From: Ignavibacteriales bacterium
GTDB lineage: Bacteria > Bacteroidota > Ignavibacteria > Ignavibacteriales > Melioribacteraceae
Length of the DNA: 64,000 bases
Direction of reading: 5' to 3'
NCBI GenBank assembly: GCA_016177735.1
Contig: JACOUS010000021.1
Location: 1-64,000, forward strand
A program made the position numbers and the translations under genes. Each line of letters starts with the position of its first letter. Positions within the stretch are counted from its first letter, which is position 1. Below are positions 12,134-44,538 of the stretch, one piece after another. The notes under the pieces are model-generated. The model did not search any database, had not been told where the DNA came from, and was given only the letters and a program-made list of their open reading frames with translations.

Positions 12134-12137
12134 GCCT

Positions 12138-12665
12138 ATGAAAAATCTAATAATATTTATTGAAGGGCCAAACGATAAACGATTTTTTGAATCAATCGTT
12201 AGACCTAAAATAGAAACTCAATTTGATTGTATTCAATTTTATGAATATGCTACAAAAACTGTTAAACAAACCAAAAATTTTATTAAAGCTATTCATAAGC
12301 TTTCTTATAAATATATTTTCGTAAAAGATTTAGATAGTTCTGTATGTATTACTCAAAGAAAACAGCAAGTCCTTGATAAATACTGTGATTGCGATAAGTC
12401 ATTGATACAAGTAGTTAAAATAGAGATAGAATCATGGTATGCTGCCGGCATAAATAAACGAAGTTATAAGAAACTAAGAATAAAGGAATTCAAGGACTGT
12501 AACAATGTATGTAAAAATGTTTTTGAACAGCATTTACCACCAAAATCTATTGTCCAAGATAAAATGATAGATATTCTTGAAAATTATGATTTAACATTTG
12601 CTAGAAAAAATAATAATTCATTGGATTACTTTTTTCAAAAACTCTTAACCAGAATAGCAGCCTAA
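12138..12665 (+). CDS. Small TOPRIM-like protein, partner of the ATPase
   Basis: A protein of 175 residues. The start IIFIEGPNDKRFFESI places a glutamate (E9) after a hydrophobic strand, and YIFVKDLDSS gives a DxD (D64, D66): the two conserved elements of a TOPRIM catalytic site as in OLD nucleases and DUF4435-like proteins. The rest, with QVVKIEIESWYAAG and KSIVQDKMIDILENYD, is typical of such stand-alone TOPRIM effectors. It probably acts with the upstream ATPase, either as a nuclease or as a toxic effector. Its TAA stop (12663-12665) lies within the R''-like end of the following attC, so the recombination site supplies the stop. Confidence 0.65.
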   Translation: MKNLIIFIEGPNDKRFFESIVRPKIETQFDCIQFYEYATKTVKQTKNFIKAIHKLSYKYIFVKDLDSSVCITQRKQQVLDKYCDCDKSLIQVVKIEIESWYAAGINKRSYKKLRIKEFKDCNNVCKNVFEQHLPPKSIVQDKMIDILENYDLTFARKNNNSLDYFFQKLLTRIAA

Positions 12666-24477: not shown

Positions 24478-26250
24478 TTAGGATGACGACGTAAACGAGA
24501 AATAACTCTGACTGGAATACAACTGTGCTAATTGCGTTTGTAACTGAATATACCGGCTTCTCAATACTCCAGCACTTTTATCGATTCTTTTCTGTGCAGA
24601 TGTGATGCTGTCCGTTAATGTTGTTATAGTATTGTTATAAGTCTGCTGGGATTTAATTAGATAACCGGAAGAACCGAGATACGGATTCACTTTATCATAA
24701 AGCGAAGCTGCAATACCGTTTGTTGATGTTGTAAATAAAGAAACTACTTCATCAGATTTTGTTTTAACAGCATCTTCAAATGTGGTGGAATTAGATAAAG
24801 TCAGCCCGGAATCAATGTTAAAAGTTATTCCGATTTTGGAAAGACTGTTTAACTGGCTGGATGGGATTCCGCTGACAGTTTTATAAGCGGCATCGTTTAA
24901 TGTAGTTATTAATGAGGATGCCGTCGCATCCCCAAGAAATACGCCGCGAGTTTCGCCGCTGGTTTTGGAATTGCTTTTTATATATGAATAAACATCGTTG
25001 AACTTTGTGATGAAATCTTCAATCTTCTTTTTGATTGTTGCAACATCTTTGGTAACCGATACGTTAACAGTTGTATCGGTAGCTTGCATTATTGAATTTA
25101 ATGTTACGGTTGTGCCGGTAATTAGGTCCGTTATTGTATTCGAATTTCTTTCGATGTTGATGCCGTTAAATTCAAACTTGGAATTAAGAGCGGTTGTTGC
25201 ATAAACGTAACCCGGTGTATCGGCGCCGGATGTATTTTGTACATAACTTGTCCGGCTTGCGCCAAGATTTAATCCGATCGAATTGAGTGCGTTGTTTGAA
25301 GCGGTGTCCGTGAGTGAAGTAATACGGTAATCGTTCCCCGAAGTTTTAGCAGTAAGCGAAAACTGGGATAAACCGGTTGACGGTGTAAAAACGGAAGCCG
25401 TCACAACTCCGGATGCGCCTTTCTCTTTTGTAACTGCATTCAGCCCGAGTTCGGTCAACAATGTTCCGGTATCGCTTTTCAGCGTAACATATTTCGATGT
25501 ATCGTTCACGGTAAAATTCAATTGATAGTTTGAACCGTCAACAACTTTCTGAACTGTTAAACCACCGATATTATTAAGCTGCGTAACGATGCTGTCGATA
25601 ACATCACTGTACGTTCCGGCTGAATAATTAATTGTGGTTTCGGTTCCGCCGATATCAATAACAAACGAACCTGAAGAAGCGGTACTACCGGTAACAGATG
25701 ATGAAGTTATTGCTGCCGTATCGGAATTAACGGCGCTCTGAATTTTCTGCATCACTTTACTGTTCGAGATAACACCCGCCGTAAAATCGGATGCATCAAA
25801 AGTTACCGAAACTTTGCTTGTGTATTCTCCTCCGCTTCCGTCGCCGGTTTTAATTGTAAACTCGTGAGTGCCGGCGGAAGTAATAACCGTAGAAGCATCG
25901 TTTGTATTGAGATCGGATGATAAAACAAGATCATTTTTTGCAAGTTGATTAACGCGCAGAGAGTACGATCCGTCAACTGCACCCGTTGATGATGCAACAG
26001 AAACAAAATTTGTGTTGGATGACGTTCCGGTTTTTGAATAGTAAATTGAACTCGATGCGGAGCTTTTCAGATCTGTTAAAAGTGTCTTTAAAGAATCAAG
26101 CTTGCTGCTGAGTGCAGAATACGACGATACAAGATTTTGATATTTTGTTTTTTTGTTGGTAAGCGGAGTAATCCGTTTACTTTGTTCGGAAGTAATATAA
26201 TCACTAACAAGGCTGTTGATGCTCGATGTTGTTAAGGCATTTGTTGCCAT
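24478..26250 (-). CDS. fliD: Flagellar filament cap protein FliD (HAP2)
   Basis: A protein of 590 residues from the ATG at 26250; the in-frame TTG six bases earlier is rejected. The N-terminal SSINSLVSDYITSEQSKRITPL, then a coiled-coil-like LVSSYSALSSKLDSLKTLL, is the HAP2 N-terminal domain. The middle holds Ser/Thr-rich domains, and the C-terminus (LYDKVNPYLGSSGYLI..., then QKRIDKSAGVLRSRYIQLQTQL) is the HAP2 C-terminal domain that contacts the filament tip. FliD caps the filament so exported flagellin can polymerise. It starts 2 bp after the fliS stop. Confidence 0.93.
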   Translation of the reverse strand: MATNALTTSSINSLVSDYITSEQSKRITPLTNKKTKYQNLVSSYSALSSKLDSLKTLLTDLKSSASSSIYYSKTGTSSNTNFVSVASSTGAVDGSYSLRVNQLAKNDLVLSSDLNTNDASTVITSAGTHEFTIKTGDGSGGEYTSKVSVTFDASDFTAGVISNSKVMQKIQSAVNSDTAAITSSSVTGSTASSGSFVIDIGGTETTINYSAGTYSDVIDSIVTQLNNIGGLTVQKVVDGSNYQLNFTVNDTSKYVTLKSDTGTLLTELGLNAVTKEKGASGVVTASVFTPSTGLSQFSLTAKTSGNDYRITSLTDTASNNALNSIGLNLGASRTSYVQNTSGADTPGYVYATTALNSKFEFNGINIERNSNTITDLITGTTVTLNSIMQATDTTVNVSVTKDVATIKKKIEDFITKFNDVYSYIKSNSKTSGETRGVFLGDATASSLITTLNDAAYKTVSGIPSSQLNSLSKIGITFNIDSGLTLSNSTTFEDAVKTKSDEVVSLFTTSTNGIAASLYDKVNPYLGSSGYLIKSQQTYNNTITTLTDSITSAQKRIDKSAGVLRSRYIQLQTQLAQLYSSQSYFSFTSSS

Positions 26251-26252
26251 TA

Positions 26253-26585
26253 TCAACCCGTATTTTTCATCGAGTTATTCCATGTATCGCGCAGCTCTTT
26301 AAGAATTTTTAAAACAACTCCCGTATTCTGTTTACGCATTTGATCCTGGCAATATTGATAAAGTCTCAAAAGTCCGTTCGAAATTTCTCTTGCCGAAGGA
26401 TCGTCAAAATTGAGGGCGTTAATAAGAACTTGCAATGCCTCGTTCGTTTTTATCATTTCATTTTTTTGACAATTGATAATTGCAAAATCATACACCTTCA
26501 TTATCAACTGCTGGGGCGATGCGTTATTTATCTGATTAACGAGATACGAATTTGTTTTATTCGAATAAGCATTAGCAGTGTACAT
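26253..26585 (-). CDS. fliS: Flagellin export chaperone FliS
   Basis: A protein of 110 residues with the FliS core: an N-terminal YSNKTNSYLVNQINNASPQQ, then LIMKVYDFAIINCQ, LQVLINALNFDD and LLRLYQYCQDQMRK. The four-helix FliS binds the flagellin C-terminus and prevents early polymerisation. FliS also sequesters or releases flagellin in the FliW-CsrA circuit, encoded at 47992-48621. It follows the flagellin terminator and precedes fliD by 2 bp. Confidence 0.92.
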   Translation of the reverse strand: MYTANAYSNKTNSYLVNQINNASPQQLIMKVYDFAIINCQKNEMIKTNEALQVLINALNFDDPSAREISNGLLRLYQYCQDQMRKQNTGVVLKILKELRDTWNNSMKNTG

Positions 26586-26653: not shown

Positions 26654-27484
26654 TTAACGGAAAAGACTGAGTATCTGTTGAGGTGCTGAATTCATTTGAG
26701 AAAGCATTGCAGTAGCAATCTGGTTCATGATTGAGCCTTTGGTTGCATTCAATTGCTCCTCTGCGGCATCGGCATCAAATATGTTGCTGATTGTTGCAGT
26801 GTTGTTGGCAATTGCAGCGGTCAGGTATTCTTCTCTTGAATCGAGTGTCTGTGAAAGGTTACCGATTCTTCCGAGAGCAGAACGAACGTTTGTAGCAACA
26901 GTTGTTGTATCATAATCATTAACTGTTGCGTCTGCTGTACATTGCAAGTTGCTTGTACCGATTGCAGTCGCTAATGTTGATGTAGAGAGATATGAAGAGC
27001 TACCAAAATCTACAGAGAATGCTGCACCGCTAACATCAAATGATGCAGAACTTAATGCTGTTGAACCGTCGGTGCTTGCCAATAATTGTGTACCGTTGAT
27101 GTTTGTGTTCTTCAAGATAGAATCGATTTCTGCTGCAAGAACTCTAATATCTTTTGCAATAGCGGCAGAATCTTTCAACGGGTCGTCGGCGTCAACTTGT
27201 TTTGCTTTGATCTGGTTCAATTTATCGTTAACCTGCTGAAGAGCTGATTCTGCTGTTGACAGATAGTTCTTTGCAGAAGAAATATTGGTAAGCTGTGACT
27301 TTTGTGTTAAGGTCTGAGCTTCCAATTTTTTACCAACGCTGTATCCCGATGTATCATCGGCTGCGCTGTTGATTCTTTTACCGGTTGCTAAACGAAGTTG
27401 TGCCTTTTCTGTTTGTGCATTAACTTTTGCCAATGCGTTATAAGCTTGTAAAGCACCAATATTTGTGTTAACTGAGAATGACAT
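26654..27484 (-). CDS. fliC: Flagellin
   Basis: A protein of 276 residues from the ATG at 27484 (GGAGG at 27490-27494); the in-frame ATG at 27496 precedes the Shine-Dalgarno sequence and is rejected. The N-terminal SFSVNTNIGALQAYNAL and LRLATGKRINSAADDTSGYS, and the C-terminal MNQIATAMLSQMNSAPQQIL, then SLFR, are the conserved D0/D1 helices. The variable centre (about 140-200) is short and Ser/Thr-rich, a plausible site for glycans made by the adjacent island. Flagellin is the filament subunit. It has its own sigma-28 promoter and a leader hairpin suited to CsrA control. Confidence 0.95.
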   Translation of the reverse strand: MSFSVNTNIGALQAYNALAKVNAQTEKAQLRLATGKRINSAADDTSGYSVGKKLEAQTLTQKSQLTNISSAKNYLSTAESALQQVNDKLNQIKAKQVDADDPLKDSAAIAKDIRVLAAEIDSILKNTNINGTQLLASTDGSTALSSASFDVSGAAFSVDFGSSSYLSTSTLATAIGTSNLQCTADATVNDYDTTTVATNVRSALGRIGNLSQTLDSREEYLTAAIANNTATISNIFDADAAEEQLNATKGSIMNQIATAMLSQMNSAPQQILSLFR

Positions 27485-27489
27485 AACTA

Positions 27490-27530
27490 CCTCCATGTGT
27501 TTTTATTTTTCCCCAAGCTTCCTTGCTTGG
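27490..27530 (-). promoter_or_regulatory. Predicted CsrA-binding leader of flagellin mRNA
   Basis: On the minus strand CCAAGC-AAGGAA-GCTTGG (27530-27513) forms a 6-bp hairpin with GGA in the loop, the preferred CsrA site. A second GGA lies in the Shine-Dalgarno sequence GGAGG (27494-27490), 17-20 bases downstream. Two such sites in this arrangement repress hag translation in Bacillus subtilis until FliW removes CsrA. Confidence 0.75.
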
Positions 27531-27607: not shown

Positions 27608-29113
27608 TTACAGCCCGAGCAGTTTTTTTATAGATGTGATCTTGTGCAATACTGATTCCGGTACGTTTGAAATTGCTTCAAGCTTTTGAAGGTAGTAAAT
27701 AATTTTTCCTGAGTCGCCAAGTTGAACCGCGCAAGAAATTAAGAAGAGGTAACCACCGGCGTCCAACAATTCAATATTGTTTTCCAGCAAAAGCATTGCG
27801 TCTTTGGCACGGTTTTCTTCCGCAAGAATGTTTGCTCTAAGTTTCAGCACATCAATCATCTGCGGATATTTTTCCAACAGAAATTTTGAAAGCTCTTCCC
27901 TCTGATGATTATCTTTTGATGCCGCAACAAGAGATGTAAAAAGAGAAATATTTTTGTCGTTCGTTGTTTCTCTAAACAATTTGACTTCCATCGGATCGAG
28001 AGATAATCCGCCCAAAAGTTTTTGTATGATTTTTATTCTTAACTCTGAATCAGCCGGATATTCTTTTTGATAAAACGATAACAACTTTTCTACAAAGTGC
28101 TTAACACCGTCAATCGATTTGGAAAGTAAACCGAGTGAAATGCCGTAAAAAATTATTTCTTCCTCATCAACAAGGCATGAAAGTTCGCTCTCTATCTGGA
28201 GATTGCTTTGTTTTGAGTTGAGCGCAAGAGAATTTTTACATTCGGTTAACGAGGCAGCTAAACTTCCCTTTTGCAGTTTAATCTTCGAACTTAGGTACGA
28301 GGCGTAAGGATTATTGGAATTTATCAACCGCGACTGCTCAATACTTTTTTCTGCCTCTGTCCCCTTTCCTATCGAATGATAGATGAATGCCATCGAAGTA
28401 TAACTATCGGCGCGCAATGTTTTATTCAATCTTTTGTCATCAGAAGAAATTTTGAAATAGTGAAGAGCTTGTTCGTATTCATCGATAATAGTATAAGTGT
28501 TTCCAAGTTGGTAAGCGTCATACGGATGTTTATCCCGTTCAAATTGATTTAGCAGTATCGCCAAATTTCTTTCGGCTTTTTTCTTTTTCCCATCGGTAGG
28601 TATATTATAACCAACATGATCAATTACAATCGAGCAATTAATCAACTTGTACTTATTTTCAATTAATGACGGAACAATCTGTTCATGCACTTTACCGGTA
28701 AATTTTATTTCGGGCTGATTTCTAAACAAGCGTGTATTGCGCATTACATTTGTTCGTCCGGTATAAGTATCAATGTTGTTAACCACACAGTAGTAACCAA
28801 GTTTCTGATCTCCAGAAATTATTTTTTTTAATTCATCATGCGAAGATTTTACCAACCGCTCATCCGCATCAAGGTATAAAATCCAATCACCGGTAGATTG
28901 TTCGAGTGCAAAATTGCGCGCTGCGGAAAAATCATTAATCCAATCAAAGTGAAAAATTTTTGCATTATATACTTGCGCGATCTCAATAGTTGAATCAGTC
29001 GAGCCGGTATCTACAATCACAATTTCATCAACAACATCTTTAACGGATTCAAGGCAATCGCGAAGATATTTTTCTTCGTTCTTAACAATCATTGAAAGCG
29101 TAATGGCTGGCAT
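27608..29113 (-). CDS. GT2 glycosyltransferase with TPR repeats
   Basis: A protein of 501 residues. The N-terminal GT-A domain has TLSMIVKNEEKYLRDCLES, VVDEIVIVDTGSTDST and the LYLDADERL metal-binding DxD. From about 185 to the end, helix pairs with TPR-like spacing (YDAYQLGNTYTIIDEYEQAL and repeats) form a protein-binding platform. The layout resembles O-GlcNAc-type and other protein glycosyltransferases that recognise a protein acceptor. It follows the giant transferase gene by 2 bp and precedes the flagellin promoter, so flagellin is the likely acceptor; that is inference from position. Confidence 0.88.
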   Translation of the reverse strand: MPAITLSMIVKNEEKYLRDCLESVKDVVDEIVIVDTGSTDSTIEIAQVYNAKIFHFDWINDFSAARNFALEQSTGDWILYLDADERLVKSSHDELKKIISGDQKLGYYCVVNNIDTYTGRTNVMRNTRLFRNQPEIKFTGKVHEQIVPSLIENKYKLINCSIVIDHVGYNIPTDGKKKKAERNLAILLNQFERDKHPYDAYQLGNTYTIIDEYEQALHYFKISSDDKRLNKTLRADSYTSMAFIYHSIGKGTEAEKSIEQSRLINSNNPYASYLSSKIKLQKGSLAASLTECKNSLALNSKQSNLQIESELSCLVDEEEIIFYGISLGLLSKSIDGVKHFVEKLLSFYQKEYPADSELRIKIIQKLLGGLSLDPMEVKLFRETTNDKNISLFTSLVAASKDNHQREELSKFLLEKYPQMIDVLKLRANILAEENRAKDAMLLLENNIELLDAGGYLFLISCAVQLGDSGKIIYYLQKLEAISNVPESVLHKITSIKKLLGL

Positions 29114-29115
29114 AA

Positions 29116-32100
29116 TTACTCGACAAGCGATGTATGATTGATTTCGTAACCGAGCAGTTCGTTTACGCTGGATAGTTTTTGCTGTGCTTCCAAATTTTGC
29201 GGATCATTTTTCAATGCCCACTCGTACATCGCTTTGGCATTTTCAAATTGATTTTCAGCAAGCAATACATCCCCTAATCCCAAACATGCCGAGCTGGAAT
29301 CAGGCGAGTAATTCAATTGTTGTTCAAAATAATTTTTTGCTTTCTGAATGTCATTCAATGCGAAACTTAATTTGCCGGCAAGCCCCAGTAATTCCGAAAT
29401 ATCGATGTCGGCAGTGTCTGCTTCAAACATCTCGATTGCATTTTCTATACTGATTAAAGCAAGCTCTAAATTATTCCCTTCGAGATAAAATTTTGCTTCC
29501 TCTATAAAATCGTTCAAACTGCCGGCAGACTTATCAATTTGAATGTTGTTTAAGTGAAGATCCAAATCCGCCCGTGTAAAATTTTGGTATTTGTTCAAAA
29601 GTTTTTGAACATTCTTGGAATCAAATTCAATAGTGAGCAGTTTTTGATATGCTTCGATATAGCGGCTGACTGAATTATATTCCGAATATTCAATTGAAGT
29701 GAGCAGACCTTTTTCCAAAACATCATTCAAAGGAATTTTTTTATAGAATATTTCAGCAATACGCCTCGAGAGTTCTGTTACATTGCCGTAATCGATAAGA
29801 AATGAATTATACCCGTCGAAGCAGAAACTTTCGGCGCCCATATTTTTTGTTGTAATTGTTGGAGTGCCGCAAGCCATCGCTTCCAAAAGCGGCAATGAAA
29901 ATCCTTCATACCACGAAGTGCATGCAACAAGGCTTACCTTCCGTATAAGTTCCGCTATTTCGGTGCTGGTTTGTTTTGTTTTCAATTCGATCACACAATT
30001 AAGCTCTTTCTGTAGCTGCTCTACCATCTCTTCCGAATCTTCTATTTCGGAGCCAAAGATTAAATAAAGTTTTAACCCGCTGATGTTCAATTGCGAATTC
30101 TGCAAAGTTCTAATCGCTTGTGATAAAAAGAGCAAACCCTTCAGCAGATATTTCGGATTACCAATAAACACGATTGATTTCTCGCGTTTCATGTAGTCAA
30201 AATTTGGATAAAATATTTTATGATCAACTCCGTTCGGAACGTATTCGGTTTCTCTATCAAATTTTTCTTTGAACAACTCCGAGAGATGTTTGGAGACAAC
30301 AATATTTTTGACCGGAACTGCATGAAGTTTTGTGAGGAGATGCTTATCGCTTCTAAGTTCTTCGTAAGTAACTCCGTAATGATATCCTTCGTACCCCTGA
30401 CAAATATGAACAATCTTTTCAAGCGGCGCATGATTTAACATCATCGGTAAATCAAAAATGCTGAACACAATGAATAAATCATACTTGTTGTTTTCGATCA
30501 GCTGTCCATCCTTCAGCTGAATATACTTAACATCCACATGAGTCCAAGCCGGTTTTACAGCGTAAGAGTAAACGACTACACCAATACCAAAATTCTTAAG
30601 CCATTCAATATGTTTAAATAACACTTTGGTGCCGCCGCCGATTACGGAAGCGTCCGCAATAAAAAACGCAACACATCTCGATGAAACTGCCGCGCTTGAT
30701 TTTGCAGCAGTCTGGTTAAACGCTATCAGGTCTTTATCCAAATCGATATCATCATATTTGTAGCCGGTTTTACAAGAAGGGCAGATAAAATTACTTTCGG
30801 AATTAGATTTCTCCATCTTGCTTATAAAATTTATTCGAACATGTCCGCCGCATTCAGAGCATTTGAATTTCATTTTATGCAAGACGGAGCTTGAATATAC
30901 TTTGCTCGGCTTGATATCCCATGAAATAATATCCTTCGGATCCAACTGTTTATAAATTTGATTTTCCGGGAAGCCAATCAAACGCGGCACAAACTTGCTG
31001 TAATTTTTTAGATCATCTGCATTGGTTTTCAAAATCTTATCAAAATAAATTTCGACTGCCATTGCATTTTTTTGATCCCCTTCTTTTATCAGTTTTTCAA
31101 CGTAAGTCATACCTTCTTTTACCAAATCATAACCGCTATCATCATGAGCTTTCTTCGAGAGAAATTTTTTGAGCAGCGGCTTTACATCAGGATGTATCAG
31201 CTCCTTTAAGTAGAAATTTACAATCTCCTCAATCTTGCGCATGATAGCATTGCGAAGCGAAGGCTGCTGCTTACCAACCCATGCTAACATTTTCTCAATC
31301 AGTACCGATGTAAAACCGCACTTGTACAAAAATGCATTATCCTTTGTTGTTACATAGATAACTTCATTTATGGCAAGAAGAATATGCTGATCAATCGTCA
31401 GGTCCAACAAAGGGAAAAGTTTTTCAAAAGAATTCTGATTCAAAAACTTGTACAGTGCACGTGTTGAATCGAGTACACCGCCTTCTATAAATGAGTTGGT
31501 TGTTTGCCCCGGATGAATTCTTGTTGTGCATGTTCTATTATCAATAAACACCGATTCGTACTGTGCAGATATTCTAAGCCACATATCAAAATCTTGCCCT
31601 TGCCGCAGATTTTCATTAAACAAACCAACATTGTCAAATACGGATTTATGAATTGCGATAGAATTACCATGAACATAATTTGCCCAGAAAAAACGCGTTA
31701 CTTGAAATTCTCTTTCAAAAGGTTCAAGCCATGTTCCGGTTTTTATTTTTTGTCCGGTTTGCTGTAAATAAATAAACCAATGACTCGTAAAGAATTTTAT
31801 TTCAGGAAACTGAGCAATGGCTTTGTAATGGATTTCAAGTTTATTCGGCTCGAACCAATCATCGGATGAGAGCCAGCAGAACCATTCTCCTTTTGCGTTT
31901 TTTATTCCGGCATTTAATGCCGATGAAACACCACCGTTTTCTTTGTGAATCGCTTTAAATCTTTTATCAAGCGATAAATATTTTGCAATTACCTCTTTTG
32001 TATTATCGGTGCTTCCGTCATTTACGATTATCGCTTCCCAATTCGTAAAAGTCTGCGCAAGCAGTGTGTCCAATGCCTCGCCGAGATATTGGTCGTGATT

Positions 32101-35100
32101 ATAAACCGGAACAATAACAGAAAAGAACGGAGGTCTTTCAACTGCCGGTTTAAGCTTTTTCTGTTCGGCAAAAAATCTTGCCATAGAAATCAAAGTTTTC
32201 CACTTTTCAACCATTCCGTTAATTGTTAATTTTTTCTCGAACATCATTTCGCGCGGAGAATATTTTTTTTCTAGAACTTCCGATAAACCCTTTTCGAAAT
32301 CATCCCCAAAATATCCTACACACGCGCGTTCTTCTTCCATAAAATCTGCAAAGATGCCGGTGTTATGCATTATAACCGGAAGATTACAAAAACATGCTTC
32401 AATTGCCGCGAGGCATTGTGTTTCTACCGGTGAACCGAGTATAAAGAAATCGGCACAGTTCAACAACTTTGCAAGTTTAGTTTGATCAATTCTGTTAAAA
32501 GTTCTGCAATTCTTTTTTTCATATTGTTTGTTATCCTTCGATACGATAATCCAGAATATTTCATCGTGATTATCAATTACCTTTTTAACATTCTCCCATC
32601 CTTTTACTTCACTCAAATCACCGACAAATATTCCGACCTTTGAATTCGGAATATTGAACTCACTCCGCACAATTTTTTTATCGAGAGGGCGAAACAAATC
32701 ATCGTCAACGCCAATCGGAATTATTTCAAAATTATATTCAGGATACGACGCGGCGGTAATCTTCGAATTTGTAACTAAGAGATCTGCATGTTTAATATTA
32801 ACTTCTTGCTGAAATGATTTTCTGCCCATCGCTCTCAAATTATCTTGCAAGTAAAGAATCGTAAAATGATCATTATCGATTAAATCAATAAACGTAGCAT
32901 TCTGAACTACCACAGCATTTTCGGGACAATTTTCTTTTAAGTGCTTTCTGGCTTCCACCTCAAAATTTTTTGTAACATGAAGCGAATCCATATCAACGCC
33001 AACCGCATTCGGCAGATTAGAAAGTAGGAAGCCCCACATTGTTTTTTCGCCCATTCTGCCAAGCAAATAATCATTACAGATTATGGTGCGTACTTCATTA
33101 TGCTGCGATTCAACCGTTCCGGCAGAGTCCATCTCTCCGCATTGGAAATGATAGACAACAGAATCGTAAGTTGTTGTATGTTGTATGCCGATACTTGTTA
33201 ACTTTTGCATTAACACAACATCACCGCTAACGCAAGCCTCTCCTTTTTTCGCAATCGCCGGATTAAAAATTTCTGTCCCGGGAATAACGTTCCCTTCAGG
33301 GTAACCGCCGGCTTTTACAAAATCATCTTTTCTAATTAAGAGAGGCATGAAGAGTCCGCCGTTTACAAGATTTTCTTCGCTGATAGTTTTAGCAAATTCT
33401 TGAAATGCAATTTCATCGTAATCATTAACAGTTCTGCCGAAATTTTTACTTACGGCATGATCACCAGAAAGTAATTTACCCGATTCAACTAGCCGCGAAG
33501 CGACACAGTTATTGCCGCTAATTTTACCGAAAAGATTTTCGACCCAATTTTCTGAAAACGCCATGTCGCTGTTAATGAACAACAAGTAATCGCCTTTTGC
33601 TTTTTCGGCGGCATAATTCCACGCACGGTAAACATTATTGATATACCATTCTTTTCTTTGTTCGGACGAATTATTCCAAACATAATTAGGAATGTAATTT
33701 TCATTGAGATAACGGAGAACTTCTTCGTTTGCATCGTTCGCCACAAAGTAAAATTCTTTATCGCGAAGGTCGGTGTATTTTAAAACTTGTTCATAAACAA
33801 ACTTGAGCCAGTCAGTACTTTTATAAATTAAACATACAATCGAAATTCTCGGCTTGAAGACTTCGTCTTTATAATCATCAAGACTCGCCAAAGCTTCATT
33901 AAAGCCGCGTTGAAAAGGTTTATCATCATCAATGTACAATCCAGCCGGGAACAGTTTTTCATCTACTTTTTCAAGAGTGAGCGTTTTTTCGTCAAGCAGT
34001 CTTTCCAATGCCCAGCCGGTTTGACCGTGTGAACGGTAAACAAGATATTTGAATGCAAGCGAACGGTCGGATGCAAATCCGTAATGAATCACCCCAACAT
34101 TGTTTGTTCTTTCAATTTTCGAGATTGAATGCGGATACTGCTGCTGATGCAAACCGGGTCCAGAATCTTTGAATCCAAGTTCGGGAGTAACCCGCCACAG
34201 ACGAACGAACCATCCGAGATCATAAGAATTGTCAATTCGTTTCCACGAATGACTTCTCCACAAATTTATTTCATGGAGGCTGATCCCATCGATATTATTT
34301 TCATCTGCATACTTGCAGAGTTTGTGCAATTCGATATTTGCATTCGCAGTTAAAACTTCATCTGCATCGAGCCACAAAATAAAATCCGGCTCAAGTTTAA
34401 GCGCGTATTCAAGGAGAATTTTTTTATGGTTCACTTCATTCTTAAAATCATTTTCTCCGGCACGTAAAGTAAATATCGCTTTGTCGAGCATGTACTCGTA
34501 GCTTCCATCCGTACTCCCGTCATCGTAAACAACAAGCCCGTCGCAAACCGGTTCAATAAATTTCCAGAAGCGTTCTAAATTTTCTTTTCTGATTTCATTA
34601 TAAACTTGAGTAATGCAGACAATTTTATATCGGCTCGCTTGGTTTTTTCCTTCGTCAACAACGGCAATTTCATTTGTATTACTGTTGTTGAGATAAACAT
34701 CGTTAATCCATAATGAATCGTATTGTAAACGACCGGGTTGAATTGGAAAGCTTGTTAATTCAAGCAAAGAAAATCCTTTTTCTTCCAGATACTTTACAAC
34801 TTCGTTGTGAAGTTTTTGTCCCTCGAAGAATGGATATGATTCGGATTCAAGATGCATAATTTTTACGGTAGAGAGTAAACCGCCCATTCCTTCTAAAACT
34901 TCTATTGCTGCACCTTCAACATCAATCTTCATCATATCAACTTTTTCGATATTGTATTTTTTAGCAAGCGTCTCAAAGCGGTATGAAGGCAATTTAATTA
35001 CTTCGTTACCGTATTCATTGCCTCGATTAAAAATGCTGTGGATGCCGTTAATTTTTTTCTTATAGAAATCGACTTCACCATCTCTATCGGAAATAACTGC

Positions 35101-35910
35101 ATTAATACAAACAATATCGTTTAACCCATTCAGGTATTTATTGTAGTTATCTGGCAAAGCTTCGATTGCATAAACCTCGGCAGACGGAAATACTTTTTTG
35201 AAATACTGAGAGTCGTTGGCATCCAGCGCACCAATTTCGACAACGGTTTTAATTTCGTTTCCGCCGGCAAACATTTGTTTTGCCTTGCTTACAAAGGCAG
35301 GCATTGTAATTGACTTATTAACATTTCTATCAAAATAATCTTTCGCAAATGCAATATTTTTTTCTTCGCTGCTTTCCCATGAAAGTTGAGTTTTCCTTTT
35401 TCGTATTAGAGTCAATCCGGGATGAATCGGAATCGTCATCATCTCAAATTCATCGTTATGTTTTTTCAATTCCTCAATTACCAAATACGCATCACCGCAA
35501 TAACCTTTATCGGTGTACTGTAAATTTTTCGGATGAGTATCATGCAATAAAATCAAACCGTGATCTTTCACATACGGAAAAAAATTCCAAAAATCTTTCA
35601 GCACTGATTCTTTTGAATGATCGGCATCAATAAAAAGCATATCTATTGAGATTGGATTCTCTTTCAAAGCGTCTGCAAACTGGTCTGTAGTTGAATTCAC
35701 AAAAACTGTTTTCTCCGAAACAGTCATATGTTTTCCGGCAGACGGAGAAACATCAACTCCAATAAGAATATCGGCATACGGAACAATTTTGTTGAACAAC
35801 CCGCATTGATACAATCCCAACTCAACATAAATTTTTGGTCTGTATTGAGAAGCGAGATATACTATAAAATCTTCATGCCAATTTTCTTTTCTCTCAATAG
35901 GTTGATTCAT
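29116..35910 (-). CDS. Giant multidomain glycosyltransferase/methyltransferase (about 2,264 residues)
   Basis: A very long single frame from the ATG at 35910; the earlier in-frame start (35931) would overlap the upstream gene by 20 bp. Domains in order, residue numbers approximate: class I methyltransferase (15-190; ELGLYQCG near 30, FIDADHSKES near 100); FkbM-type methyltransferase (220-395; VVEIGALDAN); GT2 (427-600; VVYDDGSTDG near 463, LWLDADEVL); second GT2 (688-860; NSDMAF); GT-B/GT4-like (1040-1240; PIGVDDDLF, GDLSEVKGW); third GT2 (1263-1500; VIVPVYNHDQYLGEAL, VNDGSTDNT); four-cysteine zinc ribbon (1680-1715); GT4 (1750-2080; GGGTKVLFKHIEW, EGFSLPLLEAMACGTPT); TPR-like end (2110-2264). 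It would build and methylate a glycan, most likely on flagellin given its place upstream of the gene. Confidence 0.9.
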   Translation of the reverse strand: MNQPIERKENWHEDFIVYLASQYRPKIYVELGLYQCGLFNKIVPYADILIGVDVSPSAGKHMTVSEKTVFVNSTTDQFADALKENPISIDMLFIDADHSKESVLKDFWNFFPYVKDHGLILLHDTHPKNLQYTDKGYCGDAYLVIEELKKHNDEFEMMTIPIHPGLTLIRKRKTQLSWESSEEKNIAFAKDYFDRNVNKSITMPAFVSKAKQMFAGGNEIKTVVEIGALDANDSQYFKKVFPSAEVYAIEALPDNYNKYLNGLNDIVCINAVISDRDGEVDFYKKKINGIHSIFNRGNEYGNEVIKLPSYRFETLAKKYNIEKVDMMKIDVEGAAIEVLEGMGGLLSTVKIMHLESESYPFFEGQKLHNEVVKYLEEKGFSLLELTSFPIQPGRLQYDSLWINDVYLNNSNTNEIAVVDEGKNQASRYKIVCITQVYNEIRKENLERFWKFIEPVCDGLVVYDDGSTDGSYEYMLDKAIFTLRAGENDFKNEVNHKKILLEYALKLEPDFILWLDADEVLTANANIELHKLCKYADENNIDGISLHEINLWRSHSWKRIDNSYDLGWFVRLWRVTPELGFKDSGPGLHQQQYPHSISKIERTNNVGVIHYGFASDRSLAFKYLVYRSHGQTGWALERLLDEKTLTLEKVDEKLFPAGLYIDDDKPFQRGFNEALASLDDYKDEVFKPRISIVCLIYKSTDWLKFVYEQVLKYTDLRDKEFYFVANDANEEVLRYLNENYIPNYVWNNSSEQRKEWYINNVYRAWNYAAEKAKGDYLLFINSDMAFSENWVENLFGKISGNNCVASRLVESGKLLSGDHAVSKNFGRTVNDYDEIAFQEFAKTISEENLVNGGLFMPLLIRKDDFVKAGGYPEGNVIPGTEIFNPAIAKKGEACVSGDVVLMQKLTSIGIQHTTTYDSVVYHFQCGEMDSAGTVESQHNEVRTIICNDYLLGRMGEKTMWGFLLSNLPNAVGVDMDSLHVTKNFEVEARKHLKENCPENAVVVQNATFIDLIDNDHFTILYLQDNLRAMGRKSFQQEVNIKHADLLVTNSKITAASYPEYNFEIIPIGVDDDLFRPLDKKIVRSEFNIPNSKVGIFVGDLSEVKGWENVKKVIDNHDEIFWIIVSKDNKQYEKKNCRTFNRIDQTKLAKLLNCADFFILGSPVETQCLAAIEACFCNLPVIMHNTGIFADFMEEERACVGYFGDDFEKGLSEVLEKKYSPREMMFEKKLTINGMVEKWKTLISMARFFAEQKKLKPAVERPPFFSVIVPVYNHDQYLGEALDTLLAQTFTNWEAIIVNDGSTDNTKEVIAKYLSLDKRFKAIHKENGGVSSALNAGIKNAKGEWFCWLSSDDWFEPNKLEIHYKAIAQFPEIKFFTSHWFIYLQQTGQKIKTGTWLEPFEREFQVTRFFWANYVHGNSIAIHKSVFDNVGLFNENLRQGQDFDMWLRISAQYESVFIDNRTCTTRIHPGQTTNSFIEGGVLDSTRALYKFLNQNSFEKLFPLLDLTIDQHILLAINEVIYVTTKDNAFLYKCGFTSVLIEKMLAWVGKQQPSLRNAIMRKIEEIVNFYLKELIHPDVKPLLKKFLSKKAHDDSGYDLVKEGMTYVEKLIKEGDQKNAMAVEIYFDKILKTNADDLKNYSKFVPRLIGFPENQIYKQLDPKDIISWDIKPSKVYSSSVLHKMKFKCSECGGHVRINFISKMEKSNSESNFICPSCKTGYKYDDIDLDKDLIAFNQTAAKSSAAVSSRCVAFFIADASVIGGGTKVLFKHIEWLKNFGIGVVVYSYAVKPAWTHVDVKYIQLKDGQLIENNKYDLFIVFSIFDLPMMLNHAPLEKIVHICQGYEGYHYGVTYEELRSDKHLLTKLHAVPVKNIVVSKHLSELFKEKFDRETEYVPNGVDHKIFYPNFDYMKREKSIVFIGNPKYLLKGLLFLSQAIRTLQNSQLNISGLKLYLIFGSEIEDSEEMVEQLQKELNCVIELKTKQTSTEIAELIRKVSLVACTSWYEGFSLPLLEAMACGTPTITTKNMGAESFCFDGYNSFLIDYGNVTELSRRIAEIFYKKIPLNDVLEKGLLTSIEYSEYNSVSRYIEAYQKLLTIEFDSKNVQKLLNKYQNFTRADLDLHLNNIQIDKSAGSLNDFIEEAKFYLEGNNLELALISIENAIEMFEADTADIDISELLGLAGKLSFALNDIQKAKNYFEQQLNYSPDSSSACLGLGDVLLAENQFENAKAMYEWALKNDPQNLEAQQKLSSVNELLGYEINHTSLVE

Positions 35911-35911
35911 G

Positions 35912-36730
35912 TTATGCTTCCTTGTAAGCAAAAAATTCTTTCATTGCTTTAATTTGTTCTTCGAGATTTTTCTTTGCTGTTCGTGCCGAAAGCGGATAGA
36001 CACTGCCCAAGCTTCTATCAATTGCGTCTTTGGCTTCTGCCGGATTGATCTTCAAATTCAATTCGTAAACTCTGCTGAATATTTGCAAAAGTTCATGCTT
36101 GTTAACGGTGTTCGGAGAGTGGATGTGAAAGATTCCTTTTTGATAAAGATTGTTCTTCAAAATATTTTCGATAACTTCTGCGAGATACAAAGTTGTAACG
36201 CCATTCCACAAATGATTTGTAAATCCGTTCACTTCTTTTCCGGCTTGACTTTTTGCCCATTCGAGCAGAGAGCGGCTCTGCCCGTTCTCTTCGCCAATAA
36301 TTGAAGTGCGGAGAACCATGCAGTCTTTATTTTCGCCGGCATTTTTGCTCAAGCCGTAAAGATCATCTGCATCGAAATAATCTTCTTCGGTGTACTTCCC
36401 TTTTTTGCCGGTGTAAACGCAGTCGGTTGTAACGTGAAAACATTTTATTCCTCGCTTGTTACAAACCTTTGCAAGATTTCTTGGAAAGAGAGAATTTATT
36501 TTTAGAACATTTTCTATTGTGTTCTTTGCAATTGTTGGCTTAATCACTCCGGCGCAGTTGATTACAACGTCAACGCCATCGAGAAATGATTCGAACTTTT
36601 CTGTCGGATCGTTCGCAATATCAAATTCATTGCGCGAGATTTCCACGACATCGTACTCCTTCGATTTGAAATACGAGCTGACAGCGTAGCCGAGCATCCC
36701 GGTTGTACCGATTATCAAAATTTTTTCCAT
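35912..36730 (-). CDS. RmlD-like NAD(P)-dependent sugar reductase
   Basis: A protein of 272 residues from the ATG at 36730 (GAGAGGT upstream); an in-frame start at 36763 lies within the upstream gene and is rejected. It is an SDR fold of the dTDP-4-dehydrorhamnose reductase type: ILIIGTTGMLGYAVSSYF, NCAGVIKPTIA, HVTTDCVYTGKKG and YGLSKNAGE. It may reduce a 4-keto nucleotide sugar. With the cupin and 2-epimerase-like neighbours it resembles a split version of the CapF/FnlB reductase-epimerase that makes UDP-L-fucosamine-type sugars. Confidence 0.8.
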   Translation of the reverse strand: MEKILIIGTTGMLGYAVSSYFKSKEYDVVEISRNEFDIANDPTEKFESFLDGVDVVINCAGVIKPTIAKNTIENVLKINSLFPRNLAKVCNKRGIKCFHVTTDCVYTGKKGKYTEEDYFDADDLYGLSKNAGENKDCMVLRTSIIGEENGQSRSLLEWAKSQAGKEVNGFTNHLWNGVTTLYLAEVIENILKNNLYQKGIFHIHSPNTVNKHELLQIFSRVYELNLKINPAEAKDAIDRSLGSVYPLSARTAKKNLEEQIKAMKEFFAYKEA

Positions 36731-36732
36731 TG

Positions 36733-37197
36733 TTACCTCTCTTCCACTTTCCACGGGTCCCAATAATGTGCGTCGTAACGAACATCATCATTGAGACTGT
36801 CTTTTAGTTCAGACGTTGAAAAGAAAATTATTTTTGTGTCTTCGGTTAACGACAGAAATCCGTTTGCATATCCGGCTGGAATAAACAGAACGGAGGGATT
36901 TTTTTCGCTGAGTACAAACCGATGTATTTTCAAATTTCTGGATGGCATTTCCCAATTATCAATCTGCACAGCGCCGATAACCGCAGAACCTTTTACAACC
37001 ATTACATATTTTGATTCATTGCGGTGGGCGTGCCATGCGCGTACAAATCCTTGTTTATGATTTTCGACCGTGTAAAATCTTTTCACACCGTCGAAGTTGA
37101 AATCATTGACAAAACTTACAGTGCCGCGGTCATCAACAGCGAGACCGCCTTTTAATAACTGCGGAGCTGTTTCGATTTCTGCAATTTGTTCGAACAT
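36733..37197 (-). CDS. Cupin-fold sugar epimerase/isomerase-like protein (RmlC/WxcM type)
   Basis: A protein of 154 residues. A double-stranded beta-helix with VKRFYTVENHKQGFVRAWHA, then H-x-N and FIPAGYANGFLSL, plus a final DAHYWDPW. The RxWHxH region and the FIPAGYA strand are typical of RmlC/WxcM-like enzymes acting on 3- or 5-positions of keto sugars. It starts at the base shared with the stop of the preceding SDR gene and ends 2 bp before the reductase, so it is in one operon. Which position it epimerises is not decided. Confidence 0.78.
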   Translation of the reverse strand: MFEQIAEIETAPQLLKGGLAVDDRGTVSFVNDFNFDGVKRFYTVENHKQGFVRAWHAHRNESKYVMVVKGSAVIGAVQIDNWEMPSRNLKIHRFVLSEKNPSVLFIPAGYANGFLSLTEDTKIIFFSTSELKDSLNDDVRYDAHYWDPWKVEER

Positions 37198-38168
37198 TAC
37201 GCAGCCTCTACTTCTTTGAATTTATTGATCAGTTCTTCATAGTGTTCTTTCAAGTACGCCTGATTTGAATAGCGCGGACTCTTCAAATCTTTAATGCGTT
37301 TTGTTTCCACCAAAAATTTTAATTCCTCTATTCCTTCGTCAACGGAATGAATAGACTTGAACCCGAAAACTTCTTCGGCTTTTTTTGCCGAGACGCGGTA
37401 ATTGCGCGTATCCTGAAACGGCATATCGGTGTGTTCGATAACCATATCGGGAAAATGCATTCGAACTTGATAAGCCAAATCCATTATGCGCACATTCTGC
37501 CGCGCAAGATTGTAAACGCCTTTGTGTTCTGTTTCCAAATTCATCAACACAGCGCGTGCAACATCTTTAACATGAAGCAGCGGACGGAATTGATCGCCGC
37601 CGAATACACTGATTTGTCCTTCAACGAATGCTCGCACGGTTAAAATGTTCACAACCAAATCCAGACGGATGCGCGAATAAAGATCACCGACACCGAACAA
37701 CGTTCCGAGCCGGAAGATGATTGCATTTTTATGTTTCAAAAATTTCTCTGCGTTCAATTTTGTTTCTGCGTAAATGGATAACGGATTTGTCGAAGAAGTT
37801 TCGTTCAACTCGCTGTTTTGCGCGCCGTACACCGAACATGTTGACATAAAAACAATTCTGCCGTCGTAATTATCAGCAAGCCAAGCAACAGAATCCTGAT
37901 TGATTGATTTTGTCAGTTCGGGATTCAACTGGCAAGCGCCGTCTCCAACAATAGCTGCAAGCCAAACAACGGCATCCGCCCATTTGAGATGCGGAATTAA
38001 TTTTTCATGATCGCGCACATCTCCGTAAATAAAATCGACCGGCTTCCGGAAAGAATCTTCGTAAAGAAGCGCATCATAAACACGAACGTTGTAATTAGAT
38101 TGTTGTATTAAATCCGTGATTGCACCGCCTACATAACCGGCGCCGCCAACTATCAATACATTTTTCAT
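37197..38168 (-). CDS. NAD-dependent nucleotide-sugar epimerase/dehydratase
   Basis: A protein of 323 residues with an extended SDR fold: VLIVGGAGYVGGAITDLI, FIYGDVRDHEKLIPHL, VFMSTCSVYG and the catalytic YAETKLNAEKFL. The AAIVGDGACQLNPE segment (loop after the GxxxGxG strand) and a C-terminal DTRNYRVSAKKAEEVFGF are typical of sugar-modifying members. It would convert a UDP- or dTDP-sugar for the glycosylation island. It is one base from the upstream 2-epimerase-like gene. Confidence 0.83.
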   Translation of the reverse strand: MKNVLIVGGAGYVGGAITDLIQQSNYNVRVYDALLYEDSFRKPVDFIYGDVRDHEKLIPHLKWADAVVWLAAIVGDGACQLNPELTKSINQDSVAWLADNYDGRIVFMSTCSVYGAQNSELNETSSTNPLSIYAETKLNAEKFLKHKNAIIFRLGTLFGVGDLYSRIRLDLVVNILTVRAFVEGQISVFGGDQFRPLLHVKDVARAVLMNLETEHKGVYNLARQNVRIMDLAYQVRMHFPDMVIEHTDMPFQDTRNYRVSAKKAEEVFGFKSIHSVDEGIEELKFLVETKRIKDLKSPRYSNQAYLKEHYEELINKFKEVEAA

Positions 38169-38169
38169 G

Positions 38170-39240
38170 TTAGAGTTTCCTTTTAAGTATGTTTACAATT
38201 TTTTCGGATGTGGTTCCGTCGCCGAGCCACTTCAATTGTTTTTTTGAAACGGAATAATTTTCGAAAAACGAAATTGTTTCGGAAAGCATTTTGCTGATTG
38301 GTTTTGTCTCGCCGATTAAAATGCTGTTTCCGTTTTCGATTGATTCGGGTCGCTCGGTTTTTAAACGCGGTACTGCAACCGGCACACCGAGCAATGGGCA
38401 TTCTTCCTGACTTGTGCCCGAATCCGATACTATTCCGTATGCGTTGTATTGAAGATTCAAGTAATCCAGAAATCCGTACGGACCAACGAGTTTGATATTT
38501 TTTTTATCCGCGAGAAGATTATTCTGCTCAATCAATTTTACGGCGCGGTTGAATTTTACCAGCCGCACTTCCAAACCGGTTTTCTTTCCAAGCTGATCGA
38601 GAAATGTTAGAATATGATTGTATTGTTTTACGTCTTTCAAATTTTCACTGCGGTGAATATCGGCAACAATAAAATCGCACGAACGTTTCCCTTGCGGCAT
38701 ATATTGCTGAACTACTTCAACAATCGTATTGCCGACAACAAAAATTTTCTCCGCTTCCTTATTTTCCTGAATCAATCTTTCTTTGTAGATGGGCGTGTAA
38801 ACAAAAACGAGATCGGATACATAATCGCAGATAACACGGTTAACTTCTTCGGGCATTCTTCTATCGTATGAACGCATTCCGCCTTCGATGTGACCGATTT
38901 TGTAACCTTCCTTAAAAAGCGGCGCACTTACCATTGCAGAGTTTGAATCACCCAAAAAAAGAATTATTGCCGGCTCAATTTTTTTCCGCTTCAATAAATG
39001 GATTACTTCTTTGGACAGATACGATAACTGCTCGTAATGATTAGTACTGTTCTGCCCGGTCGCAAGCGTGAAATCGGGTTTGCGGATTTTGAGTTCGCTG
39101 AAAAAAATTTTGCTCAACTCGTCATCGTAATGCTGACCGGTGTGAATCATAATGTGTTCAAAATTTTGATCGAGTCGCTCAAAAACTTTGCTCATTCGTA
39201 TAAAGTCCGGGCGGATGCCCGTTATGGTAACTATTTTCAT
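38170..39240 (-). CDS. UDP-GlcNAc 2-epimerase family protein (WecB/Cap5G-like)
   Basis: A protein of 356 residues from the ATG at 39240; an in-frame start at 39288 has no support. A GT-B-like epimerase fold: VTITGIRPDFIRMSKVFERL, HIMIHTGQHYDDELSKIFF, GHIEGGMRSYDRRMPEE and SDSGTSQEECPLLGVP. The HTGQ.YD.EL..IFF and RKPD features recall Cap5G/FnlC, which makes UDP-L-FucNAc. The usual GTRPE start reads GIRPD, a common variation in this group. It is probably the first gene of the nucleotide-sugar/glycosylation operon. Confidence 0.85.
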   Translation of the reverse strand: MKIVTITGIRPDFIRMSKVFERLDQNFEHIMIHTGQHYDDELSKIFFSELKIRKPDFTLATGQNSTNHYEQLSYLSKEVIHLLKRKKIEPAIILFLGDSNSAMVSAPLFKEGYKIGHIEGGMRSYDRRMPEEVNRVICDYVSDLVFVYTPIYKERLIQENKEAEKIFVVGNTIVEVVQQYMPQGKRSCDFIVADIHRSENLKDVKQYNHILTFLDQLGKKTGLEVRLVKFNRAVKLIEQNNLLADKKNIKLVGPYGFLDYLNLQYNAYGIVSDSGTSQEECPLLGVPVAVPRLKTERPESIENGNSILIGETKPISKMLSETISFFENYSVSKKQLKWLGDGTTSEKIVNILKRKL

Positions 39241-39345
39241 TAAATCCGGATTTCGTTTGCATCCTCTGAGACAAAATTTATACCACAAGTATTGTGGATT
39301 TTTTAAAGATATCGAGGCGCAGTCTGTTTGATTTTATCAGGTTGG

Positions 39346-39435: not shown

Positions 39436-39678
39436 ATGAAACCATTAATTACACTGCCGGCTCATTTTGACGGCAAAGCAATAATTCTTGATGCCCCATT
39501 CAAATTAAAATCTGATGCTAAATTATTAGTAACAGTATTGCAGTCCGGCGAGTATGCCGAAGAAAAGGAAGAGTGGGATGTTTCATCATTACTTCAGTTG
39601 AACAAAGCTTACTCAAAAGATGAGCCTGAGTATTCTCTTTCCTTAGTTAAGGAACCTAATCCGGAATATAAAAAATGA
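39436..39678 (+). CDS. Antitoxin partner of MazF-type toxin
   Basis: A protein of 80 residues. The N-terminal half (ITLPAHFDGKAIILDAPFKL) is short beta-like sequence of the kind seen in many antitoxins of unnamed families; the C-terminal half is charged and disordered-looking, ending in NPEYKK. The toxin gene start overlaps the stop (ATGA). No known DNA-binding fold is evident, so the name rests on the toxin partner. Confidence 0.72.
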   Translation: MKPLITLPAHFDGKAIILDAPFKLKSDAKLLVTVLQSGEYAEEKEEWDVSSLLQLNKAYSKDEPEYSLSLVKEPNPEYKK

Positions 39679-40016
39679 AAGAGGGTGATACTGCACTCGT
39701 TGCGCTTCCACAGATGGACGGCGGAAATAAAATCAGACCGGTATTGCTTCTTCGTCAACTACCGGCTCCATATTATGATTTTCTTGTCTGCGGTATTAGT
39801 TCTCAAACTCACCAAATGATTAAGAATTTCGATGATATTATCGCTGAACGAGATGACGATTTTAAGAAAAGTGGAATCGTTAAAGAATCAATAATCCGCC
39901 TAAGTTTCCTTGCGGTTATTCCAAGAAATTTTATTGCCGGCACAATCGGAAGTATCTCCGAAGAGCGTCATCAAAGAGTTTTACATAGATTAAGCGATTA
40001 TCTTGTGAAGAGATAA
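39675..40016 (+). CDS. MazF/PemK-family toxin
   Basis: A protein of 113 residues with the PemK/MazF fold: GDTALVALPQMDGGNKIRPV, LLLRQLPAPYYDFLVCGIS and a final IAGTIGSISEERHQRVLHRL. MazF-family toxins are ribosome-independent mRNA interferases. It overlaps the antitoxin by four bases. The module sits between the glycosylation island and the unknown flagellar-linked operon and is not part of the cassette array. Confidence 0.83.
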   Translation: MKEGDTALVALPQMDGGNKIRPVLLLRQLPAPYYDFLVCGISSQTHQMIKNFDDIIAERDDDFKKSGIVKESIIRLSFLAVIPRNFIAGTIGSISEERHQRVLHRLSDYLVKR

Positions 40017-43858: not shown

Positions 43859-44494
43859 TTATCGGATTTCGATACTTTTGACTACAACTTCGCCCTCTTC
43901 TCGCCCGGTATTGTAAAAATTAACTTCTACAGAAAAATATTTTTCTATAAATTGAATTAGGCATGCATTGATGTATTCAAATTCTTCCTTAAGTAATTTT
44001 TTGTAATCCGATAAAAAAGAATCTATAGTTAATTTGTTAGTAATGGTATTTGGTTTTGTTATACCGGGTGCATTAAACTGTTCAAAAAAGTTAAATAGAG
44101 TTTCTAATTTTTTTTTACTGCCCGGTACAAATTTATTTCCGATGGGTGCCTTCAATGAAACCGAGACAAAAATTTCAGTTAAGTGCCCGTGAAAATTTTT
44201 TTCTACTTTGTAATCTACTGCCGGGTTATGATTTAATTCGTTTGGAAGAACTGCAGTTTCAAACTCAAAGCCGTCAATTTCAAAAACAAGATGAAGTTTT
44301 TCAGAATGCTTGTTTAACTTTTTTAATTTCCATCCAAGACTTGCAAGAAGAGAAGTTGCCGGCGATATACTGAGGTAATCATTGGAATGAATTTTCTGGT
44401 AACCGTGCGGTCCAAGTTTTTTATAATACTTCGGATTACCGCTTGATTTTCGATAATCTGTACCGGGGCTGATATTTACAACTTTTTCTAACAT
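43859..44494 (-). CDS. Protein of unknown function, first gene of a sigma-28 operon
   Basis: A protein of 211 residues, not recognised. Mixed alpha/beta: KLHLVFEIDGFEFETAVLP, GHLTEIFVSVSLKAP and a C-terminal VEVNFYNTGREEGEVVVKSI. No signal peptide or membrane segment is seen. It starts about 18 bp after the -10 of a near-consensus sigma-28 promoter (44512-44538) and is followed by a PAS kinase gene after 9 bp, so it is likely expressed with late flagellar genes. Confidence 0.7.
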   Translation of the reverse strand: MLEKVVNISPGTDYRKSSGNPKYYKKLGPHGYQKIHSNDYLSISPATSLLASLGWKLKKLNKHSEKLHLVFEIDGFEFETAVLPNELNHNPAVDYKVEKNFHGHLTEIFVSVSLKAPIGNKFVPGSKKKLETLFNFFEQFNAPGITKPNTITNKLTIDSFLSDYKKLLKEEFEYINACLIQFIEKYFSVEVNFYNTGREEGEVVVKSIEIR

Positions 44495-44511: not shown

Positions 44512-44538
44512 TTATCGAAAGAAAAAAAGGAAACTTTA
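44512..44538 (-). promoter_or_regulatory. Near-perfect sigma-28 promoter
   Basis: On the minus strand TAAAGTTT, 11 bases, TTCGATAA: an exact FliA -35 box, exact spacing and a -10 differing at two of eight positions (TTCGATAA versus GCCGATAA). It lies between the end of the main flagellar operon and the unknown-function operon. Confidence 0.85.

Follow-up and report, generated by a model that had tools for sequence, protein, structure and literature searches.

A giant glycosyltransferase/methyltransferase gene and a putative flagellin glycosylation cassette in Ignavibacteria

Gene content of the locus

The window (the whole stretch of 64,000 nucleotides analyzed here) carries on its reverse strand a run of genes transcribed in the order wecB, epimerase, rmlC, rmlD, giant glycosyltransferase/methyltransferase and GT2-TPR, followed by fliC, fliS and fliD (Table 1). 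The six genes from wecB to GT2-TPR are separated by only a few bases or overlap. Sugar biosynthesis and glycosyltransferase (GT) genes adjoin fliC, and their order is kept in relatives, as in a flagellin glycosylation island. The initial annotation had placed a GT2-TPR gene and then flagellin after the giant gene, which agrees with our results, although it mentioned neither the strand nor the four nucleotide-sugar genes located on the 5' side.

Table 1. Features of the flagellin-associated locus. Domain boundaries within the giant protein are given in residues.
Feature	Position	Strand	Evidence or remark
UDP-GlcNAc 2-epimerase (WecB/CapG-like), first cassette gene	38170..39288	(-)	TIGR00236 above cut-off
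NAD-dependent sugar-nucleotide epimerase/dehydratase	37197..38168	(-)	PF01370; best PDB match 6vo6
RmlC-like cupin epimerase	36733..37197	(-)	PF00908; under TIGR01221 cut-off
RmlD-like sugar-nucleotide reductase	35912..36763	(-)	PF04321; under TIGR01214 cut-off
Giant glycosyltransferase/methyltransferase	29116..35910	(-)	2264 aa; host, Ignavibacteria
Giant, N-terminal half			MT24 (1-195), FkbM (205-420), GT2a (432-740), GT2b (741-1000), GT4-like (about 936/1001-1245)
Giant, C-terminal half			GT2c (1250-1500), helical linker and Cys4 ribbon (1501-1780), GT4 (1781-2110), TPR (2115-2264)
Giant, linker and four-cysteine ribbon module	30664..31458	(-)	Residues 1485-1749; Cys conservation, predicted beta ribbon
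Giant, C-terminal TPR module, proposed docking module	29119..29568	(-)	Distribution among relatives
GT2-TPR protein, GmaR-like, proposed priming glycosyltransferase	27608..29113	(-)	501 aa; PDB matches, co-occurrence
Sigma-28-type promoter TAAACTTT-N11-ACCGATAA	27562..27588	(-)	In the ~110-base gap before fliC
Flagellin, fliC	26654..27496	(-)	Functional start probably an internal ATG (MSFSVNTN)
FliS, flagellin export chaperone	26253..26585	(-)	Pfam
FliD, filament cap	24478..26256	(-)	Pfam

The giant frame runs through 2264 codons without interruption, and its ATG at 35910 abuts the stop codon of rmlD (TAA-C-ATG); an alternative TTG start would give 2271 amino acids but would overlap rmlD. We rejected an assembly or frame artifact because homologues with the same architecture are found in many genomes, those of sister genomes having ~2000 to 2670 amino acids and equal domain order. 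The genome contains a single PF00669 match, i.e., one flagellin. The only zero-mismatch match in the window to the sigma-28 pattern TAAASTTT-N11-RCCGATAA is the site preceding fliC, a pattern that was composed after this site had been seen and whose looser matches elsewhere in the window come up about as often as by chance. A second sigma-28-like site with two mismatches (44512-44538, minus strand) is located before a 211-amino-acid gene without Pfam match (43859-44494).

None of the six cassette proteins contains a membrane segment by hydropathy, and Pfam detected no flippase, polymerase or phospho-sugar transferase in the cassette. The lack of membrane segments and lipid-carrier genes fits cytosolic glycosylation of flagellin, unlike the synthesis of LPS or capsule. 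Among the genes examined around fliC there were no Maf transferase or CMP-NulO genes either. With regard to a UDP-L-FucNAc pathway (CapE/F/G-like), the 2-epimerase matches CapG (PDB 7ya2) with an E value of 3e-51, but no CapE or CapF chains appeared among the PDB matches of the other cassette sugar genes. A dTDP-L-rhamnose pathway was discarded for the cassette, as its RmlC- and RmlD-like proteins score far below the equivalog cut-offs and the true genes are found elsewhere. The true RmlC equivalog is on contig C1, the true RmlB is on C11 and contig C20 is rich in epimerase-like genes, so that a separate surface-polysaccharide locus is likely.

Domains and motifs of the giant protein

According to the initial annotation, one frame encoded two methyltransferase (MT) domains, three GT2 domains, two GT4-like domains, a four-cysteine ribbon and TPR repeats. 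All of them were recovered, with Pfam matches above the cut-offs and invariant cysteines, and the catalytic motifs are conserved in relatives. Above the curated cut-offs, Pfam placed Methyltransf_24 at residues 49 to 125, FkbM at 226 to 381, Glyco_tranf_2_4 at 455 to 523, PF00535 in two stretches (best, 1264 to 1428), PF00534 also in two (best, 1910 to 2057) and TPR_19 at 2184 to 2245.

The FkbM assignment is backed by both TIGR01444 (71.4 bits, cut-off 37.7) and PF05050 (65 bits, cut-off 22.7). Its motifs VVEIGA and KIDVEG are kept with small substitutions in five homologues, and the SAM motifs are preserved in MT24 as well as in FkbM. The GT2 modules belong to that family by their matches to PF00535 (two stretches) and PF13704 together with DAD, NSD and SSDD motifs, and these acidic motifs (LDADE at 514, INSD at 779 and SSDD at about 1348) are kept in the homologue alignments. 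GT2a is similar to the GT2 domain of the neighboring GT2-TPR protein. Both GT4 modules combine a GT-B fold, matched to GT4 enzymes by Foldseek and VIA-align, with an EX7E motif (E1163/E1171 and E2002/E2010) that is invariant in the aligned homologues. Cysteines 1684, 1687, 1710 and 1713 of the ribbon are invariant in 15 homologues.

Structure prediction gave a confident model for residues 1250 to 2264 (pLDDT 84.5, pTM 0.72), consisting of a GT-A domain, a helical linker, the four-cysteine beta ribbon (predicted at high pLDDT), a GT-B domain and TPR helices. In structural comparisons, the GT-A domain (GT2c) matched GT2 enzymes of bacteria and the GT-B domain matched GT4-type enzymes including HepE, PimA and BshA (Z of about 25 to 28), the VIA-align rows spanning model residues 11 to 300 and 494 to 845, so that the ribbon and the TPR were hardly compared structurally. 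Residues 432 to 1245 were modeled poorly (pLDDT 56), with only the last third usable, where the GT-B fold resembles that of MshA and BshA; the GT-A fold is supported for GT2c alone, since GT2a and GT2b lie in this poor model. Distant Foldseek matches of the giant included the capsule multienzyme 8qoy and chondroitin polymerase.

A GmaR-like protein next to flagellin

The best PDB match of the GT2-TPR protein was Listeria GmaR (22ao), with a phmmer E value of 2.7e-36 over residues 2 to 192, followed by SunS (5e-29). It retains the DAD motif, and the alignment covers nearly all of the GmaR catalytic domain, which identifies it as a GmaR-like GT2. Membership in the SunS family (TIGR04195) was rejected, as the score of 106.9 bits against an equivalog cut-off of 350 bits makes it related only. 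The Pfam matches to TPR in this protein (TPR_1, 23.7 bits; TPR_12, 16.9 bits) were both under the cut-offs. The N-terminal domain of GmaR transfers GlcNAc to flagellin, and the protein is bifunctional, acting also as an antirepressor (PMC9638930). In Clostridium, a GT2 domain with TPR repeats has been taken as the mark of flagellin glycosyltransferases (PMC13317340). Because of the likeness to GmaR and this Clostridium mark, we assign the first sugar transfer to flagellin, by homology, probably to the GT2-TPR protein and not to the giant.

Co-occurrence with flagellin

Among 58 relatives, full-length homologues of the GT2-TPR protein (at least 200 bits) were present in 40 of the 43 flagellin-positive genomes (those with a PF00669 match) and in none of the 15 flagellin-negative ones (p=2.7e-11). 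The terminal TPR of the giant, at 40 bits or more, was found in 41 of 43 and 0 of 15, respectively (p=4.6e-12), its best score in nonflagellated relatives being about 35 bits. Both bit thresholds were chosen after the scores had been seen, and all co-occurrence tests take genomes, mostly one per genus, as independent, ignoring shared ancestry. The three flagellin-positive genomes without GT2-TPR have PF00669 hits of 300 to 428 amino acids, which may be FlgL and not filament flagellin. The whole giant was found in 10 of 43 versus 0 of 15 genomes (p=0.05), and GT2-TPR and the terminal TPR were therefore taken as far stronger markers.

Where GT2-TPR and flagellin were on one contig (n=32), the former was upstream, on the same strand and within 20 kb in 31 cases, 26 of them within 2 kb. 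An ORF of at least 1000 amino acids was found upstream of flagellin on the same strand in 28 of the 39 flagellin regions fetched. Flagellin regions held 41 ORFs of this size, 19 of which end in the terminal TPR, 13 of these 19 being within 300 bases of GT2-TPR. The Cys-ribbon core was confined to 16 of 294 genomes of the class. The module was strong in 11, 10 of them flagellin-positive (p=6e-4); in the exception (G310) the contig ends inside the giant, and fliC is possibly unassembled.

Variation of the architecture in relatives

All homologues of the giant for which names were found belong to Ignavibacteria or "Bacteroidetes" bins. The cassette order is kept, to the contig limits, in L023, L025, L026, L028, L037, L045, L103 and others, and also, with a differing set of modules, in L030, L047 and L052. 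FkbM is missing from the giants of L024, L025, L037 and L052. MT24 is encoded on its own in L026, and in G007/L045 MT24 and FkbM form a separate 416-amino-acid protein. In L030 and L047 the first five modules are absent and the GT2c-ribbon-GT4 core is present, L047 also having separate TPR-methyltransferase genes next to the core. An additional GT2 follows GT4 in L026, L028, L030, L032 and L047. We also found GT2-ribbon-GT4 giants away from flagellin, in L031 (a flagellated genome, with no flagellin within 10 kb) and L034/G043 (flagellins on other contigs), while in G004/L044 GT2-TPR adjoins fliC and the giant is absent there. The C-terminal TPR is the part most widely common to flagellin-linked giants.

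Other large proteins were seen in flagellin regions. Giants with radical-SAM, B12-binding-like, WbsX and pyruvyl-transferase modules (L048:9063-16787 and L063:11767-18639) hint at unusual sugar chemistry. Frames of 4712 and 3071 amino acids with GT2 and TPR modules are located upstream of flagellin in two genomes of one genus (G055:C121 and G056:C23). Proteins of 1500 to 1700 amino acids replace GT2-TPR directly upstream of fliC in L046:10092-15254, L050:2484-7415, L056:4808-9916, L059:3965-8881, L060:4881-9437 and L061:11248-15969; the one from L046, the only one scanned, is TPR-rich with a GT9-type match and is possibly analogous to the TPR-containing FlmG of Caulobacter.

Proposed pathway and alternatives

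Taken together, we consider it likely that the cassette serves to O-glycosylate flagellin in the cytosol without a lipid carrier, with the GmaR-like enzyme priming and the giant extending and methylating the glycan. The initial annotation had proposed that the giant glycosylates flagellin with a methylated multi-sugar glycan. Target and product are well supported on genomic grounds (the operon, the homology to GmaR, the co-occurrence with flagellin, the absence of membrane segments and lipid-carrier genes from the cassette and the location of other polysaccharide-type sugar genes away from it), but priming is probably carried out by GT2-TPR. The four cassette enzymes would supply a particular nucleotide sugar, which is probably a 2-acetamido-deoxyhexose. 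GT2-TPR would place the first sugar on serine or threonine residues of flagellin, the giant would add further ones through its GT2 and GT4 modules and its MT24 and FkbM domains would O-methylate the added sugars, the glycan presumably being completed before FliS-assisted export of flagellin. The C-terminal TPR might dock to flagellin, FliS or GT2-TPR. As the catalytic modules preceding it differ by lineage, the glycans should differ as well. The single-chain assembly line suggested in the initial annotation is plausible, with the five GT domains and the two MT domains perhaps all active. Speaking against the pathway, no glycan or methylation data turned up for members of the class, giants with the GT2-ribbon-GT4 core occur away from flagellin in L031 and L034/G043, the Cys-ribbon core is confined to a few genomes of the class, GT2-TPR falls well short of the SunS equivalog cut-off and the co-occurrence test leaves shared ancestry uncorrected.

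The number of modules at work might be smaller. In a variant of flagellin glycosylation, not exclusive with the pathway above, several GT or MT modules would be inactive, serving for acceptor binding or as a scaffold, and the glycan would have one to three sugars. GT2a and GT2b are divergent and poorly modeled, and the number of sugars may differ from that of modules; yet modules without activity should have drifted in sequence, whereas the motifs of every module are conserved (homologues have 69 to 89% identity for GT2a to GT4a) and FkbM has been lost cleanly, with no decay. We thus regard this variant as possible but rather doubtful. Less probable still is that the giant alone glycosylates flagellin, including the first sugar on serine or threonine, with GT2-TPR mainly regulating or adding a separate monosaccharide. 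This would be in keeping with the double role of GmaR (PMC9638930), the resemblance of GT2a to the GT2 of GT2-TPR and the presence of GT2-TPR without the giant beside fliC in G004/L044, but GT2-TPR keeps the DAD motif, aligns over almost the entire catalytic domain of GmaR and is the more constant of the two, retained while the module content of the giant varies. Finally, a surface polysaccharide enzyme (O-antigen, capsule or EPS) lying beside flagellin by chance or within a general surface-glycan region, as the nucleotide-sugar genes and GT2/GT4 domains typical of such loci, the distant matches to 8qoy and chondroitin polymerase and the L031 and L034 homologues away from flagellin could suggest, is very unlikely given a cassette that lacks membrane segments as well as a flippase, a polymerase and an initiating phospho-sugar transferase, a GmaR-like neighbor, the tight co-occurrence of GT2-TPR and terminal TPR with flagellin and the epimerase-rich cluster on contig C20.

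Extending the proposed cassette to the class, a more speculative idea, which we put forward tentatively, is that the flagella of Ignavibacteria are decorated by giant collinear glycan synthases, in which a constant C-terminal TPR docks to flagellin or the GmaR-like primer and exchangeable GT, MT and other modules (in relatives, radical-SAM/B12, WbsX and pyruvyl transferase) determine the sequence of the glycan much as in PKS/NRPS lines, giving species-specific methylated glycans without a lipid carrier. If true, a whole bacterial class would decorate its flagella by means of single giant proteins whose module order is perhaps readable from the genome. This would be a rare system in which the glycan sequence is predictable from the genome and the prediction testable by domain deletion. 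It would also be a source of soluble enzymes for multistep glycosylation and methylation of flagellin and other proteins.

Comparison with known systems

By analogy, the closest working system is that of Clostridioides difficile type B, in which GT1 primes with GlcNAc and GT2, carrying GT and methyltransferase domains, attaches two rhamnoses, which it is also proposed to methylate (PMC5207246). As at our locus, a chain with GT2 and methyltransferase (CDR20291_0242) is found beside flagellin, and a separate enzyme primes, as we propose for GT2-TPR. Going by its description, the C. difficile chain differs from the giant in having a single Pfam GT domain and a single MT domain, with GT4, Cys ribbon, second MT and terminal TPR unmentioned (PMC5207246). 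Listeria GmaR (PDB 22ao/22ap), a GT2 and TPR flagellin O-GlcNAc transferase, is the best PDB match of the GT2-TPR neighbor, but it is homologous to this protein and not to the whole giant, and it has in addition an antirepressor domain (PMC9638930). Enterobacterial flagellin glycosylation islands contain GT41/GT2-methyltransferase fusions next to flagellin and also include sugar genes, as here, although these are mostly of another GT family and have not been described as multi-GT giants (PMC4875605).

Outside flagella, the A064R protein of PBCV-1 has been demonstrated to carry out two sugar transfers and a methylation in a single chain at the end of a protein-linked glycan (PMC9614988). Unlike the giant, it is a viral protein of 638 amino acids acting on a capsid-protein N-glycan, without TPR or sugar cassette (PMC9614988). 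The chondroitin polymerase of Escherichia coli K4 and the Actinobacillus enzyme 8qoy are also multi-transferase chains, with a GT-A fold matching GT2c, but they make capsule polymers and lack such a pairing of methyltransferase and TPR.

Glycosylation of flagellin as such is known, as are fusions of GT and methyltransferase beside flagellin and priming enzymes of the GmaR type. The remark in the initial annotation that such a megaenzyme is not well described holds for the architecture of the giant, but not for the joining of GT and methyltransferase in one chain, which is known for flagellin (PMC5207246) and a viral glycoprotein (PMC9614988). Our search, with subscription literature mostly outside its reach, retrieved no papers dealing with the glycosylation of flagellin in Ignavibacteria or with giant GT/MT proteins encoded next to flagellin. 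The scale, the modularity and the shared terminal TPR of these class-wide giants of ~1000 to 4700 amino acids, many of them preceding a GmaR-like gene, look undescribed.

Other genes in the window

In the gap before the sugar cassette, on the opposite strand, there is a PemK/MazF-like toxin gene (39675-40016, plus strand; 27.2 bits, cut-off 23.1), and the small ORF preceding it may be the antitoxin. Farther along, a gene at 40141-41973 (minus strand) encodes a 610-amino-acid protein with no significant Pfam match and a hydrophobic stretch near residues 458 to 528. It adjoins a PAS histidine kinase gene (41966-43849, minus strand) and recurs beside the flagellin-glycan cassette in many relatives. 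At 10877-12665 (plus strand), a gene for an AAA_21 ATPase precedes one for a small protein whose match to an OLD-like TOPRIM is weak; the two are located in a low-GC island (0.31 to 0.34) and may be a defense pair.
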